A DNA stretch of 64,000 nt from Natronospira sp. (GTDB lineage: Bacteria > Pseudomonadota > Gammaproteobacteria > Natronospirales > Natronospiraceae). The translations under genes were made by a program, and so were the position numbers. The stretch is taken from positions 1-64,000 of the forward strand of contig PWMQ01000072.1 of NCBI GenBank assembly GCA_003558125.1, read 5' to 3'. Positions within the stretch are counted from its first letter, which is position 1; each line of letters opens with the position of its first letter. The notes under the pieces were generated by a model that saw only the letters and a program-made list of their open reading frames with translations, did not search any database and was not told the origin of the DNA. Of the stretch, positions 40,568 through 63,511 are shown one piece after another.

Positions 40568-42478
40568 ATGAGCATGGGTTCGGTTATTAACACCAACATC
40601 ATGTCGCTCAACGCCCAGCGGAACCTGTCTTCCTCCCAGGGCGCTCTGGCGACTTCCCTTGAGCGGCTCTCGTCCGGTCTGCGCATCAACAGCGCCAAGG
40701 ACGATGCGGCCGGCCTGGCCATTTCCGAGCGTTTCACCGCTCAGATCAACGGTCAGAACCAGGCCATCCGGAATTCCAACGATGGCATTTCCTTCGCCCA
40801 GACCGCCGAGGGTGCGCTGGAAGAGGTCTCCAACCTCATGCAGCGTGTCCGCGAACTGGCTGTGCAGTCCGCCAATGACACCAACTCCGCCTCCGATCGG
40901 GAAGCCCTGAACCAGGAGGTTGAACAGGCTGTGGCCGAGATTCAGCGGATTGCCGAATCCACCCAGTTCAATGATCAGAACGTCCTGGACGGCACCCTCT
41001 CCGACCTGGTCTTCCAGGTGGGCGCCAACCGCGGTCAGACCATTTCCGTGGATGGTGTGGATTCCCGCACCGATCAGCTTGGTCTGCAGGTCTTCGGTGA
41101 TCAGGAGGGCGTCAACACCAGCGACCTGGCCGATGTGGCTGGTGGTGATCGCACCATCACGATTGGTGACGATTCCATCGATCTTTCCGGGGCCGGTGAC
41201 GACCTCTCTGCCATCGTTGACGCCATTAATGCCGAGGGCCTGTCCGGTGTTTCGGCTGAACAGGCTGAGTTCACCGAGACGGCCGAGATGACGGTGGGCT
41301 CGATTGAAGCCGCTTCGGATGGCGCTGGCGGATTAGAGGAAGTTTCCTTCGAATTCGATATTGGTAGCGCAACGATTTCGGTGGAAGCCGGCACTACCGG
41401 TGATTTCGGTGGAACGGCCTTGGCTATCGCGGTCGAAGAGGCCGTCAATGATGCCGACATTGGTGTGACCGTCGAGCGCGACGGGGACAGCCTGGTCTTC
41501 CGCAATGAAGACGGCGAGAATATCGAATTCTCCAACATGAGCATCACCAATGCGGCCACCGGCGTCAATACCGATGACCTGAGCGTGGTCTTCGGCGATG
41601 TCATGGGCGTGGGCGATGCCATCTCCAGCGTCACCACCGTTGCCACCACCGGCACCCTGGCTGTTAGCTCCCAGATTTCGGCGACCTCTGACAGCCAAGA
41701 CCTGGTGTTCGAGCTGGAAGTGGCCGGGTTCAGCAACGTGGAAGTCACTGTATCATCCAGTGATATCTCTGCTACGGGCAACGCAGTGGATCAGGATGCC
41801 CTCGGTAATGCCATCGCAGCGGGACTGGATGGTCTGGCTGGCATTACCGCCGCTTACAGCGCCACAAGTAACGAGATTTCGGTGACCCGCGCTGATGGTG
41901 ATGACTTCACGATCGAGGGAGTCACCAATGCTACCAACATCGCCAGTCTTGATCTCAATGATCTGTTTGGTCAGCCGGGGCCCATCGAGTTTGATAACGG
42001 TACTGTGGGTCAAGCATCCGGCGTAGAGGCCATCACCTCTGCCACCTTCCAGGCTGGCTTCGAGATTGAAGTTCGGGATCTGGATGCTGAAATCTCTGGT
42101 GATGCCGAGTTCCTGCAAGCCATTGGTCTTCAGGACTCTGACGGCGACAACATCAGCCAGAGCCTGGATGTGGCCAACCTCAGCGTGCTGAGCCGGGCTG
42201 AAGCCTCGGATGCCATTCGCACCGCGGATGCGGCTCTGCAGCAGGTTTCTGGCTTGCGCTCCGAGCTGGGTGCGGTCCAGAACCGCTTCGAGGCGACCAT
42301 TGCCAACCTGAGCATCGGCTCAGAAAACCTGACCGCCGCCCGTTCGCGGATTCAGGACACGGACTTCGCCGCCGAAACGGCCGAACTGACCCGTGCCCAG
42401 ATTCTGCAGCAGGCCGGTACCTCCATCCTGTCGCAGGCCAATGCCGTCCCGCAGACGGTCCTGGGTCTGCTGCAGTAA
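40568..42478 (+). CDS. fliC: Flagellin FliC
   Basis: The 636-residue filament subunit. Conserved D0/D1 ends flank the protein: VINTNIMSLNAQRNLSSSQG and LSSGLRINSAKDDAAGLAIS at the start, IQDTDFAAETAELTRAQIL and QANAVPQTVLGLLQ at the end. The central region (about 180-520) is a variable, acidic, surface-exposed segment with two related halves (about 257-330 and 377-457). By hand count there are about 101 Asp+Glu against 24 Arg+Lys, only one Lys (K44), one Tyr (Y430), and no His, Cys or Trp. A sigma-28 promoter precedes it, and AGGAG sits 6-11 bases before the ATG. Confidence 0.97.
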   Translation: MSMGSVINTNIMSLNAQRNLSSSQGALATSLERLSSGLRINSAKDDAAGLAISERFTAQINGQNQAIRNSNDGISFAQTAEGALEEVSNLMQRVRELAVQSANDTNSASDREALNQEVEQAVAEIQRIAESTQFNDQNVLDGTLSDLVFQVGANRGQTISVDGVDSRTDQLGLQVFGDQEGVNTSDLADVAGGDRTITIGDDSIDLSGAGDDLSAIVDAINAEGLSGVSAEQAEFTETAEMTVGSIEAASDGAGGLEEVSFEFDIGSATISVEAGTTGDFGGTALAIAVEEAVNDADIGVTVERDGDSLVFRNEDGENIEFSNMSITNAATGVNTDDLSVVFGDVMGVGDAISSVTTVATTGTLAVSSQISATSDSQDLVFELEVAGFSNVEVTVSSSDISATGNAVDQDALGNAIAAGLDGLAGITAAYSATSNEISVTRADGDDFTIEGVTNATNIASLDLNDLFGQPGPIEFDNGTVGQASGVEAITSATFQAGFEIEVRDLDAEISGDAEFLQAIGLQDSDGDNISQSLDVANLSVLSRAEASDAIRTADAALQQVSGLRSELGAVQNRFEATIANLSIGSENLTAARSRIQDTDFAAETAELTRAQILQQAGTSILSQANAVPQTVLGLLQ

Positions 42479-44456: not shown

Positions 44457-44897
44457 ATGTATAACGTCTCTCGAAATGCTGCATTGACTGCCTACCGTGA
44501 GATGAGTGTCCAGGGCGGGGTGGATGAAGCCAATCCCTATCGCCTGATCCAGATGCTGATGGAAGGGGCCCTGGATCGCATCTATCAGGCTCAGGGCTGT
44601 CTGGAGCGTGGTGAAGTGGGTCCCAAGGGTGAGCAGATCGGTCGGGCCGTGAATATCATTGACAGCCTGCGCGCCATGCTGGACCACAGCCATAATCCGG
44701 AACTGTCCGAGCGCCTGGAACAGCTCTACGACTACATGTGCCGTCGCCTCACCGAAGCCAATCTGTACAATGATATGGAAAAGCTGGATGAAGTGGCGGG
44801 CCTGATGCGCGAGGTCAAGGCCGGCTGGGATGCCATCCCTGATGAGGCCGTCCAGGAGGCCGCCAGTCACAAGCAGGCACCCGCCGCGGTGGAATGA
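44457..44897 (+). CDS. fliS: Flagellin export chaperone FliS
   Basis: The 146-residue four-helix protein keeps flagellin unpolymerised before export. YNVSRNAALTAYREMSVQGGVDEANPYRLIQMLMEGALDRI is the FliS signature, with LIQMLMEGA holding the flagellin-contact helix. It also has LYDYMCRRLTEANLYNDMEKLDEV. The stop overlaps the next start. Confidence 0.95.
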   Translation: MYNVSRNAALTAYREMSVQGGVDEANPYRLIQMLMEGALDRIYQAQGCLERGEVGPKGEQIGRAVNIIDSLRAMLDHSHNPELSERLEQLYDYMCRRLTEANLYNDMEKLDEVAGLMREVKAGWDAIPDEAVQEAASHKQAPAAVE

Positions 44898-45244
44898 TGG
44901 ATCGTACGCTAATCGACAAATTGCCCCGTGAACGCCGCGAATGCCTGGAGCAGGTGCTTGAGCTCCAGGCGGCAATGACGGCCGCCGTGGAACAAGGGGA
45001 TTGGGACAAGACCCGCGATCTGGAGAGCCGCAGGGCGCAGGAATTGCGGACGCTTTACGTAGAACCCGGAGACCTGGATGCCGAGTCGGGCGAAGCGCTG
45101 GCCGGCATTACCCGTGAGCTGATTGCCGCGGACAAGGCCCTGGTCAACCAGGTGATGGCCATGCGTAGCAAGCTTGACGCGGAACTGTCGGCGGTGCGAA
45201 GGGGGCAGAAGGCCGTTGGCGCCTATGCGGATAACCGGCCATGA
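44894..45244 (+). CDS. fliT: FliT-type flagellar export chaperone
   Basis: The 116-residue all-helical protein matches the FliT position and pattern: an N-terminal helix LEQVLELQAAMTAAVEQGDWDKTRDLESRRAQELR, a central acidic stretch and a last helix LVNQVMAMRSKLDAELSAVRRG. FliT escorts FliD and can modulate class II gene expression in enterics. Sequence conservation in this family is low, so the call rests on both pattern and synteny. Its ATG overlaps the fliS stop, and its stop overlaps the following ATG. Confidence 0.82.
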   Translation: MMDRTLIDKLPRERRECLEQVLELQAAMTAAVEQGDWDKTRDLESRRAQELRTLYVEPGDLDAESGEALAGITRELIAADKALVNQVMAMRSKLDAELSAVRRGQKAVGAYADNRP

Positions 45245-45816
45245 GCGGCTCCGAGCAGTTCGCAGCGTTTTTTGATGGCCGGGTCAGCTTTCGGTCCCGG
45301 ATGCCCCTGAAGTGGGTGAGGTTCGAAACGGCCCTTGATGATGGCCAATTGGCTGCCCTGAATGAGCAGAATCTGGCCCTTCTCAGGGCGGTGGCTGCCC
45401 TGGAAGAGCGTCATACCGACACCAGTGACACGCAGCAGGTTGCCTTCAGTCCCGAACTTCAACGTCTTGAGGCGAAAGTGGATCTGCTCCTCACCCTGGT
45501 GGGCCAGATCCGTTCAGCCGATGGCTTGATACCCCCCAGCCACAGCATTGAGCTGGCCGCCGAAGGGGCGGCCTGGTGGCCGAAAGATGGAGAACAGGAC
45601 CCAAAGGATGCGGAAGGCATGCTCGAACTGTCCCTGGCCGCCTACGCCACCCAGCCCTTGATTCTGCCTGCCCGTATCCAGGCTCACGGTGAGTGGGAAG
45701 GCCGTCCGGCCGTGCTGGGCCAATTCTTCGGCTTGAATGAAACCTGCCTGGATGCCTTGGGAAAATTCGTTTTTCGCCATCACCGGCGGGCCATTGCAGG
45801 GGCAAGGCAAGGCTGA
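45241..45816 (+). CDS. PilZ-like protein linked to fliST
   Basis: The 191-residue protein shows a divergent PilZ pattern. A possible R-x3-R (RVSFR, about residues 14-18) is followed by a helical insertion of about 65 residues with leucine heptads (ALNEQNLALLRAVAALEE, LQRLEAKVDLLLTLVGQI). Then come a degenerate ELAAEG where D/N-x-S-x-x-G is expected, two strands and a terminal FRHHRRAI. A helical insertion into a PilZ fold recalls the tetrameric PilZ type described in Xanthomonas. It is translationally coupled to fliT, so a motility-related c-di-GMP role is inferred. Binding may be lost, given the altered second motif. Confidence 0.6.
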   Translation: MSGSEQFAAFFDGRVSFRSRMPLKWVRFETALDDGQLAALNEQNLALLRAVAALEERHTDTSDTQQVAFSPELQRLEAKVDLLLTLVGQIRSADGLIPPSHSIELAAEGAAWWPKDGEQDPKDAEGMLELSLAAYATQPLILPARIQAHGEWEGRPAVLGQFFGLNETCLDALGKFVFRHHRRAIAGARQG

Positions 45817-45822
45817 TTGAGT

Positions 45823-47373
45823 TCAATTCTGTCGGTAGCGCTCGCCGTATTCTCCCAAGCCCTCAATCATGGGCTCCAGCCACTTTCGGTAGGGGGCGGC
45901 CAGGCCGACAAACTGCTCATCCGGGGCTGCTCTTTCCCGGCTATCCACATTGTTGCTGGCCACAACACGCTTTTTCTCAGCAGGCCGGCAAGAATCGTCC
46001 CAGGGCAAATCCAGCAATTCGAGTACACGCCGCGTATGCACTTCGGGTTCGCGCACAAAAGATTCATACTCAACGACAAGGCATCGGTCTCCCAAGTTTT
46101 CAGCCCAGAAGTCAATCAAAGAGAGCATCATCCGGGTTCTGTGTCCGGTTTCAAACAAGGGGAGTTGGCCATGGGGAAAGCGCGGCATGAATTTTGCGAA
46201 ATTGGCGAAGGCGAGATCCAGCGGATCCCGCTTGATCAATACAATACGGGATCCAGGCACCGTTGCCCAAAGAAAGCCAGCCCCTCTCAGATTGATGGGG
46301 TTCGTGTCTGTTGACCAGGGCTCAGTAACCTCCGAGCTTTGGATGGCCTTCAGATAACGAGCGCCGATAGTGGCTCTTTGCTTGGCGTCGAGCAGCCCCA
46401 GGACCTGGCTCATGGTTTTTCCGGTTTTTCTTTCCAATGATAAACCCAGGACTGTAAAGGGAGGTAATTCTCTCTTTGCAGAGACTCGGGGGTGAGCACC
46501 GATTGCATACTCGACTAGAGACTTGCCGGATCGTGGCATGCCTAGGATGAAGACCGGGCGGGTAATATTGTCTGAAACAGAGGCAGTTGGCTCATTGTTC
46601 AATTTCTCCGCCGGGAAGTTTTTCGTAATACTTGCCACGGACTTTTCTTCTTGTTCGGCGCGATAAGGTCGATTGAATTTTCGGGCAAGTAGGGGCCTTG
46701 CTTTTTCGTTGGCGTCAATATAGGCGGTCAGGGCTTTTTCGTGCTCACCTCGCTGGTGGTAGTAGTCTGCCAGCAGGAAATAGCCTTCTGCCAGTTTTTC
46801 ACCCTCCCAAGTACCATCTCCTGAAAGGTGTTTTTCGAGCCATCGTCCGAAACGCTCGTCGTGGGACGTAAGGCCATAGCCCAGAAGGTGCCTGTAAACG
46901 GACAGACTTTGTGGCGCAGAGCTCAGTATTTGTTTGGCAACCAATTCTGCTTCCGATCGCCGACCCAGTTCGCATAATGCTGCCGCCCGGACGGCTCCCA
47001 TATCCTGGGCGACTTTGGGCAGTGACGACCAGTTATCAGATTGATCGAGCAGCTTCTCGAATTCGGCTGTTTCAAGCATGGCCTGACAAACAGCCAACCT
47101 CAGGCCATGATTCTTGGGTGCTAGTTCCAGGGATCGTTCAAGGCATTTCTGACCGGCTTCAAATCTCTGAAAATCCGTCAGTGTCAAACCAAGAAGAAAG
47201 TGGCATTCCGGGTCATTAGGGTATTCCTTGGCTAGTTCAGCCGCTGTATTCAAAGCGCGCCGTGTATCCCCGCGGGAACGAAGATCCCGAACTCGTTGTT
47301 GTTTCTTCTTGAGCTCGGGGCGTTTTGTTCCATTGACCTGCTTGCGCTGGGCCGAAGCCTGGTCTCGACTCAT
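45823..47373 (-). CDS. TPR-domain sulfotransferase family protein
   Basis: The 516-residue protein is encoded against the flanking flagellar genes. Residues about 20-225 are TPR-like helical repeats (AAELAKEYPNDPECHFLLGLTL; YYHQRGEHEKALTAYIDANE). Residues about 270-510 form a sulfotransferase domain with the PAPS phosphosulfate loop FILGMPRSGKSL (275-286) and the 3'-phosphate motif VLIKRDPLDLAFANF. ATG 47373 has GGAG upstream; TTG 47388 is an alternative. The DNA is visibly more AT-rich than its neighbours (25 of 60 GC in one sampled line), suggesting transfer. The target is unknown; flagellin or a surface glycan is plausible from location only. Confidence 0.8.
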   Translation of the reverse strand: MSRDQASAQRKQVNGTKRPELKKKQQRVRDLRSRGDTRRALNTAAELAKEYPNDPECHFLLGLTLTDFQRFEAGQKCLERSLELAPKNHGLRLAVCQAMLETAEFEKLLDQSDNWSSLPKVAQDMGAVRAAALCELGRRSEAELVAKQILSSAPQSLSVYRHLLGYGLTSHDERFGRWLEKHLSGDGTWEGEKLAEGYFLLADYYHQRGEHEKALTAYIDANEKARPLLARKFNRPYRAEQEEKSVASITKNFPAEKLNNEPTASVSDNITRPVFILGMPRSGKSLVEYAIGAHPRVSAKRELPPFTVLGLSLERKTGKTMSQVLGLLDAKQRATIGARYLKAIQSSEVTEPWSTDTNPINLRGAGFLWATVPGSRIVLIKRDPLDLAFANFAKFMPRFPHGQLPLFETGHRTRMMLSLIDFWAENLGDRCLVVEYESFVREPEVHTRRVLELLDLPWDDSCRPAEKKRVVASNNVDSRERAAPDEQFVGLAAPYRKWLEPMIEGLGEYGERYRQN

Positions 47374-47614
47374 GCTGGTTGGCTCCAAGGTCGGTTTGCT
47401 GTCCTTACAGACTGGACAGGCTTACAAGTTATCCTGCGGATAGTATCTCCTGCAAGCAAATCTAGTGCCAAGCCAGGGTGGCAATATTCGGGCACCGCCT
47501 GCCGGTAAATCGACACCATCTGTTCTCAAAACTGGCAAAAAAACATCACCTGACATATTCTCGACATATCGACAATTCAAAGCAAAGCTAAGCCGTTCTT
47601 AGGGAGCCCGCCGG

Positions 47615-49009
47615 ATGATTGAGTCGCAGATTCTGGTGCTCGAAAAAGACGAACACCGTGCCCGCGCCCTGGAGGCCGTTCTGGGGGCGGTAGACATGCC
47701 CCCGGCGGTGGTTACGGATGGCAAGGAGCCTGACCTGAGCCCGGATGGGGGCTGGCAGGCCGTGGTGGTGGGGGAGTTGCCGGCGGCTACCGAGTTGGAT
47801 GCCCTGAAGAAACTGGGTAAGCGGGTGCCGCTGGTGGCACTGGTCCAGGAGGATGGCGGGCTGATTAGCGATGAAATGGCGGACCACGCCTGTTGCCATC
47901 TCAATTATCCGGTCAAGCATGCCGAGCTTACCGAAGCCCTGCGGCGGGTGGAGGAATTCCAGGATGCCCTCAGTCGAAGCAAGGCCCGCCGCCCGGCCGG
48001 CCATTCCGAGCCCATTCGCCGGGTTCGCTCCCTGATCGAGCAGGTGGCCCCCTTTGACACCAATGTGTTGATTACCGGGGAGTCGGGCACGGGCAAGGAA
48101 GTGGTCGCCCGGGAGGTGCATGGGGCCTCGAGCCGCGCCAATGCGCCTTTCGTGCCGGTCAACTGTGGTGCCATTCCGGGTGAGCTGCTGGAGTCTGAGC
48201 TGTTCGGCCATGAGAAAGGGGCGTTCACGGGGGCGATTACTGCCCGCAAGGGGCGTTTCGAGATTGCCGAGGGTGGCACCCTGTTTCTGGACGAAATCGG
48301 TGACATGCCCCAGCCCATGCAGGTCAAGCTGCTTCGGGTCCTTCAGGAACGGACCTTCGAGCGGGTGGGCAGCAATCGACCCATTGAGTGCAATGTGCGC
48401 ATCATTGCCGCCACCCACCAGAAGCTGGAATCGATGATCGCGGAGGGGGATTTCCGCGAGGATCTCTATTACCGGCTCAACGTGTTCCCCATCGAAATGC
48501 CGCCGCTGCGGGAGCGCAATGAAGACCTCCCCGAGCTGGTACGGTTGATGAGCGCCAATATTCGGGATCAGGGCCGCCCCGGGCTACGGCTTAGCCGTAG
48601 GGCCATGGCCGCCCTCTGTGCCTATGACTGGCCCGGCAATGTCCGTGAGTTGGCCAATCTGCTTGAGCGTCTGGCAATCATCAAGCCCGGTGGCATCATC
48701 GATCTGGAGGACCTGCCCGGTCGCTATGGGGCGGATCCCGGTGATCCGGACAATCTCCCCGAGTGGGAGGAGCCGCAAGAGCAGACGGAAGACGCCACCG
48801 TCAATGGCGCCTCGGCAGCAGATCCCATGCAACTGCCGGAAGAGGGGCTGGACCTCAGAGAACACATCGCCGAGATGGAACAGAGCCTGATCCGCCAGGC
48901 CCTGGAGCGCACCGACGGAGTGGTGGCCCGGGCCGCCCGCCTGCTGAAAATGCGACGAACCACCCTGGTTGAGAAGCTGCGCAAATACGGTCTGCAGCCG
49001 GAATCCTGA
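47615..49009 (+). CDS. flrA: Flagellar master regulator FleQ/FlrA
   Basis: The 464-residue sigma-54 activator controls early flagellar genes. An N-terminal FleQ/receiver-like domain (1-115) lacks a clear phospho-acceptor Asp. An AAA+ domain follows with Walker A GESGTGKE, the sigma-54 contact loop [15 protein letters not shown], Walker [13 protein letters not shown] and [13 protein letters not shown]-terminal Fis-type helix-turn-helix ends the protein ([26 protein letters not shown]). Several residues recalled as the FleQ c-di-GMP site differ. AGGGAG precedes the ATG. The start of the transcript is not obvious. Confidence 0.93.
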
Positions 49010-57828: not shown

Positions 57829-58902
57829 GTGGAGCAGATGCTGCTAAACCTGTTTTCCGGTGGTGCAAGTGAAGCGAGTGATAAATCCAAGCGCCTGATT
57901 TCCTTGCTTTCCGAGGGGTTGCCCTCTGAGCTGGATGAAGACGGACTGCTGGAATTCGCAGACTTGCTGGATTCCAGGCTGCGCCAGGGCGAGGGACAGG
58001 GCGGCAAGCTTGTCTCCTTGTTTGCCGGGACGACCGGAAAAAGCGGCAATGAGCTGCCGGAACAGGGGCGAGGCGCGGGTGCCGAAAGGCAGGCCCTTCA
58101 GCTGGCCTTCCTGTTGAGACTGGGGGCCGCTTCCGGCGTCGGCGGGGCAGGTCCGGGTGGCGAGGTCGATAGTCTGACTGTATCCACCCGTGATCGTCTC
58201 ATGGCAGGGATCAGTGAATTCGAGCGCTTGCTTGGTGACGCTCGGGGGAGCGGTGACCGCAGCCCGGGGAGTCTGGTGCTGCCAGAAGGACTTCGCATGC
58301 GGTTGTCAAACCTTGCCGCCCAACTGGAAGGGGGGCAGACAGAATCTCGATTGGCCGCCAGCAGAGACAATCGTGAGGCTGCCGCCCAGCCACGACTGAC
58401 TCAGGCAGCGACACCGCAGCAATTGGCCGCCCTGGCGTCAACCGCCTCCCAGAGTGGTGATGTCTCCAGCCTGAACCGCATGCCTCCCATTCAGGCGCCG
58501 CTTGGCAGCCAGGCTTGGGGCGATGCGCTTCAGCAGCGCATCGTGATGATGGCCGGGCAGGGCATGGACCGGGCCGAAATCAAGCTTCATCCGCCCCATC
58601 TTGGGCCATTGGATATACGAATCGCCGTCACTCAGGAGCAGACCTCACTGATCCTGTCCAGCCATAACGCCTCGACCCGGGATGCCCTGGAGCAGGCCCT
58701 GCCTCGATTGCGGGACATGCTGCAGGAGCAAGGTCTTGAGATGGGAGAGGCGGAAGTTCGCGATGGCCGGGCCGAGGATGGCGATGAGCGCTCTCAGGGT
58801 GAGGCCAGGGGTCGTACCCCCCAGGGCCGGGAGGAGGGGCATCCCGATGAGCATGCTGCCGCCGTTGAGGTCGAGATGCGACTGCTGGACGAATACGTTT
58901 AG
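57829..58902 (+). CDS. fliK: Flagellar hook-length control protein FliK
   Basis: The 357-residue exported ruler and substrate-specificity switch. The N-terminal ruler (1-220) is poorly conserved and Gly/Ser/Gln-rich. The C-terminal switch domain is clear: ALQQRIVMMAGQGMDRAEIKLHPPHLGPLDIRIAVTQEQTSL and LPRLRDMLQEQGLEMGEAEV. The start is GTG 57829 with AGGAGAG upstream. The acidic tail (about 300-357) is unusual but in line with this genome. Confidence 0.93.
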   Translation: MEQMLLNLFSGGASEASDKSKRLISLLSEGLPSELDEDGLLEFADLLDSRLRQGEGQGGKLVSLFAGTTGKSGNELPEQGRGAGAERQALQLAFLLRLGAASGVGGAGPGGEVDSLTVSTRDRLMAGISEFERLLGDARGSGDRSPGSLVLPEGLRMRLSNLAAQLEGGQTESRLAASRDNREAAAQPRLTQAATPQQLAALASTASQSGDVSSLNRMPPIQAPLGSQAWGDALQQRIVMMAGQGMDRAEIKLHPPHLGPLDIRIAVTQEQTSLILSSHNASTRDALEQALPRLRDMLQEQGLEMGEAEVRDGRAEDGDERSQGEARGRTPQGREEGHPDEHAAAVEVEMRLLDEYV

Positions 58903-59775: not shown

Positions 59776-60849
59776 GTGAGCGACGTTCTCTCACAGGAAG
59801 AAATTGATGCCCTCATGCACGGCGTGGAGGGGGGCGATGTTGACACCGAGGAAGAGAAAAAGGACCCCGGTGAACTTCGTCCCTATGACTTTACCCGTGA
59901 AGATCGCATCGTCCGGGGTCGTCTTCCGACTCTGGAGATGATCAATGAACGATTTGCCCGATACCTCCGAATAAGTCTGTTCAATATGTTGCGCCGTTCA
60001 GCCGAAATCTCCGTTGGCGGCGTGGATATGCTCAAATTTTCCGAGTATGTGCATTCCCTCTATGTGCCCACCAGTCTCAACCTGGTAAGAGCAGATCCCC
60101 TGCGGGGAACCGCGCTTTTTATCATCGATCCAAAACTGGTTTTCGTGGTGGTGGACAACTTTTTTGGAGGGGATGGGCGTTTCTACACAAAGATCGAAGG
60201 TCGTGAGTTTACGCCGGCAGAGAATCGCATTATCCAGATGCTTTTGCACGATGCCTTCAATGACCTGAAAGAGGCCTGGTCACCGGTGATGGACATTGAT
60301 TTCACTTTCCTGGAGTCCGAGGTCAACCCCCAGTTTGCCAATATCGTCAGTCCGAGCGAGGTGGTTGTTGTCAGTACCTTCACGATAGAGCTTGAAGGGG
60401 GAAGTGGCGAGATGCACATCACGATGCCCTATTCCATGATCGAGCCGATCAAGGAGTTGCTGGATACCGGTGTGCAGAGTGATCGAGTCGAGAAGGATGA
60501 GCGATGGACTGAGGCCCTCAAGGAAGAGGTCAAGGATGCCAAGGTGGAGTTGTCCGCGACTTTGGCGGAATCCGAGATCTCAATGCGGGAACTCATGAAG
60601 TTGAAGGTGGGAGATATCCTCCCGATTAGCCTTCCTGAAGAGGTTGTAGTCATGGCGGAGGGTGATTTGCCCCTTTTTCGGGGCCGATTTGGGATTTCTG
60701 AAGGACAGAATGCAGTCCAGATGATCCAGTGGATTCGCAATGAAAAGTCACCCATCCGTGCCAATTTGGGATCAGATAAGAAAGAAGCCAAGACCCGTCG
60801 TAAAGGTCAACCCAGGACTGCTGGCAGTGGCGAGAGGAAAGAGAAATGA
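59776..60849 (+). CDS. fliM: Flagellar motor switch protein FliM
   Basis: The 357-residue C-ring protein. The CheY-P-binding peptide LSQEEIDALMHGV is at the start. The middle domain has RPYDFTREDRIVRGRLPTLEMINERFARYLRISLFNMLRRSAEI and the GGDGR loop. The C-terminal SpoA domain (AEISMRELMKLKVGDILPISLPE) pairs with FliN. The start is GTG 59776. The stop overlaps fliN (ATGA). Confidence 0.97.
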   Translation: MSDVLSQEEIDALMHGVEGGDVDTEEEKKDPGELRPYDFTREDRIVRGRLPTLEMINERFARYLRISLFNMLRRSAEISVGGVDMLKFSEYVHSLYVPTSLNLVRADPLRGTALFIIDPKLVFVVVDNFFGGDGRFYTKIEGREFTPAENRIIQMLLHDAFNDLKEAWSPVMDIDFTFLESEVNPQFANIVSPSEVVVVSTFTIELEGGSGEMHITMPYSMIEPIKELLDTGVQSDRVEKDERWTEALKEEVKDAKVELSATLAESEISMRELMKLKVGDILPISLPEEVVVMAEGDLPLFRGRFGISEGQNAVQMIQWIRNEKSPIRANLGSDKKEAKTRRKGQPRTAGSGERKEK

Positions 60850-61265
60850 GTGACGACAAGAAAGACATGACAGAGGACGAACGTCGGCAGCTCGAAGAAA
60901 TGGAGGCCGCCCAGCAGGAAGGAGAGGCGGCGGACAGTGAGCAGGACGTGGAGAAAGCCAGCTTCGATGAGTTGGGCGAGAACGCTGCCGACAAGGGTTC
61001 CGAGGAAGTGAATCTGGATATGATCCTGGATCTCAACGTCAATCTCGCAATGGAGGTTGGGAGAACCAAGATCAGTATTCGAAACCTTCTCCAGCTGAGC
61101 CAGGGCTCTGTGGTGGAGCTCGACCGTTTTGCCGGGGAGCCATTGGACGTGTTGATCAACGGCACGCTGGTCGCCCATGGCGAAGTCGTGGTGGTTAATG
61201 AGAAGTTCGGGATTCGACTGACTGACGTTATCAGCCCGTCGGAACGTATCAAAAAGTTGCGTTGA
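60846..61265 (+). CDS. fliN: Flagellar motor switch protein FliN
   Basis: A 139-residue C-ring protein. The N-terminal half is very acidic. The SpoA domain (about 55-139) is canonical: LDMILDLNVNLAMEVGRTKISIRNLLQLSQGSVVELDRFAGEPLDVLINGTLVAHGEVVVVNEKFGIRLTDVIS. It overlaps fliM by 4 bases. Confidence 0.97.
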   Translation: MSDDKKDMTEDERRQLEEMEAAQQEGEAADSEQDVEKASFDELGENAADKGSEEVNLDMILDLNVNLAMEVGRTKISIRNLLQLSQGSVVELDRFAGEPLDVLINGTLVAHGEVVVVNEKFGIRLTDVISPSERIKKLR

Positions 61266-61273
61266 GGCCAGTC

Positions 61274-61687
61274 ATGCGTCTGATCGCCCTTATGTTCCTG
61301 TTTCTTCTGCTTCCAGTCACGGGGCTGGCCGAGTCCAGTGTGGGAGACGAAATTGGTGGGGTGCAGGGGCTGGCGAATGTGGTCTTTTCGCTGATCGTCG
61401 TGCTGGCCGTGGTATTGGGTGTGGCCTGGTTCATGCGCCGCATGCCGGGCATGGGTGGTAGTGGCAGTGCTCACATGAAAGTGATTGGCCAGATGCCCCT
61501 GTCCACCCGGGAACGCCTGATGCTGGTGGAGGTGGGGAATGAGCAGATTCTGCTGGGTGTCAGCCCGGCAGGGATTCGGACCCTGCATGTACTGGGGAAG
61601 CCGCTGGAAAGTCCGCAGGAGCAAAATGAGCCGAGCTTCAAAAAGCGATTGATGGAAACGCTTGGGCGGGGAGGGGCCCAGCAATGA
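61274..61687 (+). CDS. fliO: Flagellar biosynthesis protein FliO
   Basis: The 137-residue membrane protein helps assemble the FliPQR export gate. It has a signal-like N-terminal helix and a second helix (VVFSLIVVLAVVLGVAWFM). The cytoplasmic domain contains MKVIGQMPLSTRERLMLVEVGNEQILLGVSPAGIRTLHVL. ATG 61274 has GAGG at good spacing and is preferred over TTG 61262. The stop overlaps fliP. Confidence 0.93.
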   Translation: MRLIALMFLFLLLPVTGLAESSVGDEIGGVQGLANVVFSLIVVLAVVLGVAWFMRRMPGMGGSGSAHMKVIGQMPLSTRERLMLVEVGNEQILLGVSPAGIRTLHVLGKPLESPQEQNEPSFKKRLMETLGRGGAQQ

Positions 61688-62421
61688 TGCGTCTTGCAGT
61701 CATGCTGGTGCTGCTTCTGTTTCCCGGTGCCGTCATGGGAACGCCAGGCTTGCCGGCAGTGACCGTGGAAACGGGGGAGGATGGCAGCCAGACTTATTCT
61801 GTGACCTTGCAGATTCTGGTGCTGATGACCGCTCTGACGGTCTTGCCGGCGCTGGTTCTGATGATGACCTCCTTTACGCGCATCGTTATTGTTCTTGCCA
61901 TTCTTCGCCAGGCCATGGGCACGCCACAGACACCGCCAAACCAGGTTTTGATTGGGTTGGCCCTCTTTTTGACTTTCTTTATCATGGCGCCTGTTATCGA
62001 TCAGGCCTATTCGGATGGGGTGCGGCCGTATCTGGATGGCGAGCTAGCGGCCGAGGCAGCTGTCGAGGCAACCGTTGAACCGGTCCGTGAATTCATGATG
62101 GGGCAGGTTCGTGAAAACGATATTGCTACCTTTGCCCGCATGGGGGGGCATGAGAGCTTCAATGGGCCAGAAGATGTTCCCCTTTCGGTTCTGATTCCTG
62201 CATTTATTACCAGCGAATTAAAGACTGCCTTCATTATCGGTTTTCTTCTGTATATTCCGTTTGTGATCATTGATTTGGTAGTGGCCAGCACCCTGATGTC
62301 CATGGGTATGCTGATGTTATCACCCATGCTCGTTTCCCTGCCATTCAAGATCATGTTGTTTGTGCTGGTTGATGGATGGTCCCTTGTCGTGGGGACCCTC
62401 GCCTCCAGCTTCTTTGTTTAG
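61684..62421 (+). CDS. fliP: Flagellar export gate protein FliP
   Basis: The 245-residue core of the type III export gate. A cleavable signal (MMRLAVMLVLLLFPGAVMG) is followed by four membrane segments. Landmarks are MMTSFTRIVIVLAILRQAMGTPQTPPNQVLIGLALFLTFF, VLIPAFITSELKTAFIIGFLLYIPFVIIDLVVAS and SMGMLMLSPMLVSLPFKIMLFVLVDGW. The sequence is strongly conserved. Confidence 0.98.
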   Translation: MMRLAVMLVLLLFPGAVMGTPGLPAVTVETGEDGSQTYSVTLQILVLMTALTVLPALVLMMTSFTRIVIVLAILRQAMGTPQTPPNQVLIGLALFLTFFIMAPVIDQAYSDGVRPYLDGELAAEAAVEATVEPVREFMMGQVRENDIATFARMGGHESFNGPEDVPLSVLIPAFITSELKTAFIIGFLLYIPFVIIDLVVASTLMSMGMLMLSPMLVSLPFKIMLFVLVDGWSLVVGTLASSFFV

Positions 62422-62445
62422 CACCGAAAGACGAGGGGCGCTGTC

Positions 62446-62721
62446 ATGAGTCCAGAATTAGCAGTCACCATTGGTCAGGAAGCTTTGAAAGTGACCGCTA
62501 TGATCGCGGCGCCCATGTTGGTTTCTGCCTTGGCGATGGGCCTGTTGGTCGGTATGTTCCAGGCTGCTACCCAGATCAATGAGATGACTCTCAGCTTTAT
62601 CCCCAAGCTGCTCGTGCTGGTTCTGTCTCTCGGTGTGTTCAGTTCCTGGATGCTGTCCACCATCATGGATTTTACGATCCGCCTGATTCGCAGTATTCCC
62701 CTGATTCTGGGCGGCGGTTGA
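62446..62721 (+). CDS. fliQ: Flagellar export gate protein FliQ
   Basis: A 91-residue two-helix membrane protein of the FliPQR gate. AMIAAPMLVSALAMGLLVGMFQAATQINEMTLSFIPKLLVLVL is the FliQ signature, including the QATQINE/MTLSFIPK loop. Length is standard (about 89). It starts 24 bases after fliP. Confidence 0.97.
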   Translation: MSPELAVTIGQEALKVTAMIAAPMLVSALAMGLLVGMFQAATQINEMTLSFIPKLLVLVLSLGVFSSWMLSTIMDFTIRLIRSIPLILGGG

Positions 62722-62731
62722 GGACGCGCTC

Positions 62732-63511
62732 ATGCTGAGCTTCACCGCGGCAGAGATCGGTGGGCTGTTGGGGCAATACTTCTGGCCCTTCTGTCGCGTG
62801 GCGGGAATGATCATGGTGGCGCCGGTTTTTGCCACTGCCTTTATTCCCGTACAGATAAGGGTTCTGCTTGCCGTCGCTCTGACTGCAGCCATTGTTCCCA
62901 TTTTAGAGCCTGCCCCGGCTGTGGAGGTGCTGAGTTTTCAGGGGCTGGTGATAACCCTGCAGCAGGTTCTGATCGGGGTGACCATCGGGTTTCTCGTGCA
63001 AATGGTCTTCGACGCGGTTGTTATATCGGGTCAGATCATCGCCATGAGCATGGGTTTGGGTTTCGCCTTCATGGTGGATGCCCAGCGAGGCGTTTCCGTT
63101 CCCATCGTCGGTCAGTTTCTTCTGATCATGGCAACTTTGCTTTATCTGACCATGGATGGACACCTCATTCTGATCGAAGTCCTGGTCAATAGCTTCAATA
63201 GCATGCCGGTGGGTCAGGCTGGGTTGGTCAGGGATGATATGTGGTCGGTGGTGATGTTTGGGGCAGAGATGTTCAAGGGGGCGGTTCAGATTGCATTGCC
63301 GGCTGTTGTCGCCCTTCAGACAGTGTTGATTGCCTTCGGTGTCATGAGTCGGGTTGCACCGACAATGAACCTGTTCGCGGTTGGTTTTCCCGCCGCAATG
63401 ACGCTGGGCTTCCTGATCCTGATGGTCACGCTTCCCCATATGCAGCCCGCCCTGTTCGGGCTGCTCCAGTCGGCTTTTACCACTGGGCGGGACATCGTCG
63501 GGATAAGTTGA
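62732..63511 (+). CDS. fliR: Flagellar export gate protein FliR
   Basis: The 259-residue membrane protein completes the FliPQR gate. There are about six membrane segments; FCRVAGMIMVAPVFATAFIPVQIRVLLAVALTAAIVP, the GFLVQMVFDAVVISGQIIAMSMGLGFAFMVDAQRGVSVPIV stretch and a late GVMSRVAPTMNLFAVGFPAAMTLGF are characteristic. It precedes flhB by 26 bases. Confidence 0.97.
   Translation: MLSFTAAEIGGLLGQYFWPFCRVAGMIMVAPVFATAFIPVQIRVLLAVALTAAIVPILEPAPAVEVLSFQGLVITLQQVLIGVTIGFLVQMVFDAVVISGQIIAMSMGLGFAFMVDAQRGVSVPIVGQFLLIMATLLYLTMDGHLILIEVLVNSFNSMPVGQAGLVRDDMWSVVMFGAEMFKGAVQIALPAVVALQTVLIAFGVMSRVAPTMNLFAVGFPAAMTLGFLILMVTLPHMQPALFGLLQSAFTTGRDIVGIS

Follow-up and report, generated by a model that had tools for sequence, protein, structure and literature searches.

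The flagellar gene cluster of Natronospira sp. contains a gene for a TPR-sulfotransferase, set antisense between the filament chaperone genes and the regulator gene flrA. Our best explanation, to which we give an even chance, is that the product is a cytoplasmic PAPS-dependent TPR-sulfotransferase of the flagellar sigma-54 (FlrA/FlrC) regulon that modifies a filament-related protein before export. The fold of the protein, the conservation of the gene slot in one congener, the promoter sequence and the recurrent linkage to filament genes elsewhere were all obtained by computation. In the window, by which we mean the whole 64-kb stretch of DNA that was analysed, the gene has the following setting.

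40568..42478 (+) fliC, flagellin gene, candidate substrate; 1 Tyr and 116 Ser+Thr
44457..44897 (+) fliS
44894..45244 (+) fliT
45241..45816 (+) tPilZ-domain gene, found at this position in each of the three congeners
45823..47373 (-) TPR-sulfotransferase gene, 516 aa, complete open ORF
47533..47569 (+) box upstream of flrA, TGGCAAAA..CATCA..TGACATATTCTCGACA, common to all three congeners
47615..49009 (+) flrA, gene of a FleQ/FlrA-type sigma-54 activator

Gene names other than fliS, fliT, tPilZ, flrA and fliC are taken from translations. The sulfotransferase gene begins with an ATG at 47373 (an alternative TTG lies at 47388) and is oriented tail-to-tail with fliS-fliT-PilZ and divergently from flrA. 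Its end lies 6 bp past the PilZ gene (45241-45816) and its start 241 bp from flrA (47615). Its GC content is about 7-8 points below that of its neighbours, and its codon-adaptation-like index of 0.44 was the lowest among the ten genes compared. An earlier note, written from the sequence alone, had described a 516-residue TPR and sulfotransferase protein with PRSGKS and RDPLD motifs, encoded antisense between fliT/PilZ and flrA in AT-richer DNA. The ORF and Pfam analyses bear out the protein, the identities of FliS, FliT, tPilZ and the FleQ/FlrA-type regulator were confirmed, and the composition agrees, with a GC of 0.533 and a GC3 of 0.545 in the gene compared to a GC of about 0.57-0.66 in the surrounding genes.

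Some features of the neighbourhood are recorded in their own right. The box at 47533-47569 upstream of flrA resembles a regulator or promoter site of a master gene. The tPilZ-domain gene, which follows fliT and stands next to flrA in all three congeners, may tie c-di-GMP to the filament chaperones. The genes fliM to fliR (59776-63511; named by position and translation) have a GC of mostly 0.52-0.60, below the rest of the flagellar cluster.

The Pfam model Sulfotransfer_3 (PF13469) matches residues 273-460 of the protein with an E-value of 2.7e-26 and 93.6 bits, compared to a curated cut-off of 27, and the ortholog in the congener G002 scores 92.6 bits against the same model. Pfam TPR models match residues 26-88 and 195-218. 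An AlphaFold2 model built with 30 homologs has a mean pLDDT of 86.3 and consists of an all-helical superhelix to residue ~255 followed by an alpha/beta domain. When the whole model was submitted to Foldseek, the best match was TPST2 (3ap3, E 1.7e-7), and the OGT TPR domain was also retrieved (1w3b, E 5e-5); we assign the 3ap3 match to the C-terminal part and the 1w3b match to the N-terminal part. The nearest solved sequences are those of animal tyrosylprotein sulfotransferases. The FlmG-type architecture, an N-terminal TPR domain fused to a C-terminal transferase, is present. The domains and the donor-site motifs are placed as follows.

46609..47328 (-) N-terminal TPR superhelix, OGT-TPR-like fold, residues about 16-255
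45994..46557 (-) Sulfotransfer_3 domain, TPST-like fold, residues 273-460
46519..46542 (-) 5'-phosphosulfate loop GMPRSGKS (278-285), with Lys284 in place of the family Thr/Ser
46297..46311 (-) TDTNP (355-359), with Thr357 in place of the family catalytic-site Lys (DKxP)
46216..46230 (-) RDPLD (382-386), 3'-phosphate motif; Arg382 kept, the usual Ser at +8 being Ala390

The donor site departs from that of its relatives. Homologs have PRSG[TS] and DKxP, which is a consensus of the sampled TPR-sulfotransferases and not a curated Sulfotransfer_3 requirement; the window protein has PRSGKS and DTNP, and the G002 ortholog PRSGKT and DTNP. Among ~60 homologs, the full-coverage ones of which were compared, the combination PRSGK[ST] and DTNP is confined to these two orthologs, and PRSG itself is kept. 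In the 3'-phosphate motif R-x7-S, Arg382 is present; the Ser position is occupied by Ala390 in the window protein and by Ser in G002. The C-terminal RQPxYxxSxxRWR motif is gone from both orthologs, and a different motif, common to both, is found instead. The catalytic residues of TPST2 are R78, E99, K158 and S285 (PMC5562738). The equivalents of R78 and E99, Arg281 and Glu302, are kept, the K158 equivalent is Thr357, and the region corresponding to S285 (residues 468-483, low pLDDT) could not be aligned. The retention of Arg281, Glu302, Arg382 and the alternative C-terminal motif in two orthologs at 33% identity suggests that the site is active and constrained. To judge by these residues, the lysine appears to have been relocated from DKxP to the phosphosulfate loop in a site that is constrained and probably active.

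The species' own genome encodes a CysH that ends in ECGLH and is without the Fe-S cysteine pair. We take these features to mark the PAPS-reductase type, and therefore regard this CysH as PAPS-type. A strong match to APS kinase was detected in both congeners and none was found in the species' own assembly, which is 90.7% complete. With regard to the acceptor, the flagellin has 1 Tyr and the G002 flagellin 0, and there are 4 in FlgK, 6 in FlgL and 4 in FliD. Tyrosine sulfation of flagellin is therefore an unlikely product and was rejected as the main reading. The acceptor candidates that remain are Ser/Thr, a glycan, or FlgK/FlgL/FliD. A GT41 partner enzyme was sought and none was found in the window species or its congeners, nor was any other flagellin glycosylation gene seen in the flagellar locus of the window.

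The earlier note had held that the lack of a conserved flagellar gene neighbourhood in relatives would count against a flagellar role. Synteny was found both within the genus, where G002 has the gene in the same slot, and in unrelated lineages, where TPR-sulfotransferases stand beside filament genes. The order in G002, fliS-fliT-PilZ, antisense TPR-sulfotransferase and flrA, is identical to that in the window. The two sulfotransferases share 33% identity, compared to 49-80% for the neighbouring proteins (FlrA 79%, FliS 64%, PilZ 59%, FliD 53%, FliT 49%). A tree of 61 sulfotransferase domains places the two orthologs together as a clade (100/100), whose stem branch is very long at 2.51 changes per site. 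The GC of the G002 ortholog is ordinary at 0.603, so the reduced GC of the window gene is particular to its species. In the other congener, G001, the slot is empty: PilZ and flrA are about 222 bp apart, and a search of that genome at E<=1e-3 gave no relative of the protein. The absence of the gene from G001 shows that a flagellum does not require it. A gain in the ancestor of the window species and G002, or a loss in G001, possibly with later exchange, would all fit this distribution. The overall pattern is island-like: a variable insert at the flagellin locus, with lowered GC, that is empty in a relative.

Of the 369 genomes sampled from the class, 85 carried TPR-sulfotransferases at E<=1e-15, mostly at a distance from flagellar genes; fliS was present in 48 of 79 genomes tested, nearly all of which came from the 85-genome set. 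A TPR-sulfotransferase gene lies antisense directly after fliT in G069, antisense between fliT and flrA, alongside a gene for a TPR-GT41 (OGT/FlmG-like) protein, in G311, antisense between flgL and fliC in G218, and upstream of fliC in G138. A phylum-wide search revealed a further gene in G391, from another class, which is codirectional with and 250 bp upstream of that for flagellin. The gene adjoining fliC in G221 (L102:13193-19807 (-)) encodes a 2204-aa GT2-sulfotransferase-TPR-GT2 fusion; it was rejected as a plain TPR-sulfotransferase and, being a multi-domain glycosyltransferase fusion, is listed apart.

Linkage to filament genes was observed four times compared to 0.44 expected (P 0.001) for TPR-sulfotransferases, a count that is a lower bound because at most four candidates were scored per genome; with the expectation doubled, P is 0.013. 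When every PF13469 gene within 10 kb was counted, five cases were observed compared to 1.18 expected (P 0.007), and when G069 and G311, both of family f55, were counted once, P was about 0.03. These statistics were run post hoc, after the pattern had been noticed, and are supportive only; they indicate an excess of linkage that is moderate overall and modest when counted most conservatively. The sulfotransferase gene of G376, flanked by genes that by appearance resemble queA and tgt, was rejected from the linkage count as it lies 16.5 kb from fliS. The window/G002 pair, the G218/G138 genes and the f55 genes fall into more than one clade, which suggests several recruitments, with the deep forks of the tree poorly resolved.

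Several related genes are noted here as separate observations. The G221 fusion may be a single enzyme able to build a sulfated flagellar glycan on its own. In G311 (L089:9144-12515 (-)) the TPR-GT41 and TPR-sulfotransferase genes are adjacent, and a further 199-aa ORF lies before flrA. G072, G100 and G229 have GT41-like genes (L097, L106, L116), recognised by their similarity to the G311 TPR-GT41 protein, no more than 10 kb from fliS, suggesting that FlmG-like enzymes may recur in the class. The window species has a second TPR-sulfotransferase, with ordinary PRSGTT and NKxP motifs, on another contig (G000:C90:37382-37972, L034).

The region upstream of the sulfotransferase gene carries a sigma-54 promoter sequence, a feature that the earlier note did not mention.

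47456..47470 (-) perfect sigma-54 promoter TGGCACTAGATTTGC, with its 5' end 97 bp upstream of the ATG

This -24/-12 element, TGGCAC-N5-TTGC with GG-N10-GC spacing, lies on the sulfotransferase-coding strand. Four perfect sigma-54 sites were observed in the window compared to 0.18 expected from shuffles. The other three are directly upstream of flgG (33437), fliD (43035) and fliL (59286), and several one-mismatch sites occur before flgB, flrB, fliE and the gene at 57829. The flagellar hierarchy of Vibrio is headed by flrA as the class I master gene, with sigma-54 needed for class II/III genes such as fliD and fliS (PMC6504787). Since the perfect site is of the same kind as those at the flagellar genes, the most economical reading of the sequence is that the sulfotransferase gene would belong to the flagellar regulon. 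The G002 ortholog has only a weaker, degenerate sigma-54 site, TGGTCCAGAAATTGC, and the G391 gene has a one-mismatch site, TGGCGCGCCCTTTGC. Among 54 sulfotransferase genes compared, a site with at most one mismatch was found for 2 of the 8 flagellum-linked genes (G376 included among them) versus 1 of the 46 others, and that sole site was without the essential GC. A sigma-28 promoter was also sought upstream of the sulfotransferase gene, with no good site found.

In the mechanism that we propose, the flagellar sigma-54 (FlrA/FlrC) regulon would switch on the sulfotransferase gene, the TPR superhelix would bind an unexported filament protein in the cytoplasm, much as FlmG does, and the C-terminal domain would transfer the sulfuryl group from PAPS onto the bound filament protein or its glycan. 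Catalysis, substrate, regulation in vivo, timing and effect on the filament are what we infer from the computed features. The most likely acceptor would be flagellin, modified on Ser/Thr or on a glycan. The possible link to the flagellum raised in the earlier note is strengthened by the G002 slot ortholog, the sigma-54 promoter and the recurrence in other lineages, and flagellin, one of the acceptors named there, stays a conditional target. A tentative extension, which we consider less likely than not, is that TPR-sulfotransferases have been recruited repeatedly into flagellin-modification loci and sulfate flagella in several proteobacterial lineages, the enzymes of this genus having a relocated donor-site lysine.

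An active sulfotransferase might instead act on an envelope or extracellular polysaccharide, a lipid or a secreted peptide, with its gene placed in the flagellar locus through joint regulation with motility, as part of a surface-state switch for instance. Such co-regulation alone would account for the sigma-54 site, TPR-sulfotransferases are widespread and mostly not linked to flagella, and the locus holds no other filament-modification gene, GT41 being absent. However, the repeated direct adjacency to flagellin genes or fliT in unrelated lineages and the glycosyltransferases fused or adjacent to a sulfotransferase next to fliC elsewhere point to the filament, and we consider a non-filament acceptor unlikely. 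It is quite unlikely, in our judgement, that the ortholog pair has lost PAPS chemistry and serves as a TPR adaptor or pseudoenzyme, or draws on a different phospho-donor, its target being flagellar export or the control of flrA. The loop now reads GxxxxGK[ST] and is Walker A-like, the reciprocal change of T/S to K in the loop and K to T in DKxP is unique, Ser390 is lost (in the window protein only) together with RQPxYxxSxxRWR, and the stem branch is long. Against this stand the conserved Arg281, Glu302, Arg382 and alternative C-terminal motif, and the loop lysine could stand in for the lost one.

The remaining alternative, also raised in the earlier note, is that of an unrelated cargo gene acquired recently in a tolerated intergenic slot. 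The low GC, the atypical codon usage in the window and the empty slot in G001 fit acquisition or loss. The idea is weakened by the G002 ortholog of normal GC in the same slot, by the flagellar-type promoter and by the recurrence elsewhere, including comparable genes that family f55 carries between fliT and flrA, and we regard it as very improbable.

The flagellin decorations known so far consist mostly of sugars and methyl groups. Sulfation of the bacterial flagellum is not an established process, and no report of bacterial flagellin sulfation was found in the literature searched. If the wider reading, with sulfated flagella in several lineages, is true, sulfation would be a third flagellin ornamentation beside glycosylation and methylation. 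Sulfate would put a strong negative charge on the filament and could alter filament interactions, adhesion, phage binding and immune recognition. Given a locus that recurs and a promoter, flagellar sulfation can be tested directly, with a defined mass shift of +80 Da, and the relocated lysine is a naturally occurring variant in which the activation of PAPS by sulfotransferases can be examined.

The closest parallel in architecture is FlmG of Caulobacter crescentus, whose TPR arm binds flagellins and whose GT-B domain O-glycosylates them in the cytoplasm (PMC7591256). The protein described here likewise combines an N-terminal TPR arm, predicted to bind protein, with a C-terminal transferase and would be cytoplasmic and act beside flagellin export. 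It has a sulfotransferase domain in place of the GT-B glycosyltransferase, and no GT41 was found in the genus; with this domain it cannot be classed as a FlmG, though its mode of action may be similar. The closest solved catalytic fold is that of the human and tick tyrosylprotein sulfotransferases (PDB 3ap3, 5wri, 8w5z), with the R78/E99 equivalents kept. In contrast to these enzymes, it has Thr357 for K158 and an added TPR arm, and the flagellin is nearly Tyr-free.

The Agl30 and Agl31 sulfotransferases of Halobacterium salinarum belong to an archaeal N-glycan pathway, in a cell whose filament is unrelated to the bacterial flagellum, and they are not known to carry a TPR arm. They provide a similar case of a motile cell with sulfotransferases for the sugars of glycoproteins, and deletion of one of the two (VNG1056C) lowered motility slightly (PMC11980604). 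Bacterial protein sulfation exists in the form of RaxST of Xanthomonas, a peptide-tyrosine sulfotransferase (PMC6637879). RaxST acts on the RaxX peptide and is set apart by substrate and gene context. Flagellin glycosylation and methylation islands are found in Enterobacteriaceae, the glycosylation islands averaging 5.2% lower GC (PMC4875605), and 'sulf' is absent from the main text of that survey. Like those islands and the ones in Pseudomonas, the gene described here is a variable insert of lowered GC at a flagellin locus that is patchy among close relatives. Unlike them, it encodes a sulfotransferase rather than a glycosyltransferase or methyltransferase and occupies the slot between fliT-PilZ and flrA. 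Among flagellin modification cassettes, it would be set apart by a putative sulfotransferase chemistry.
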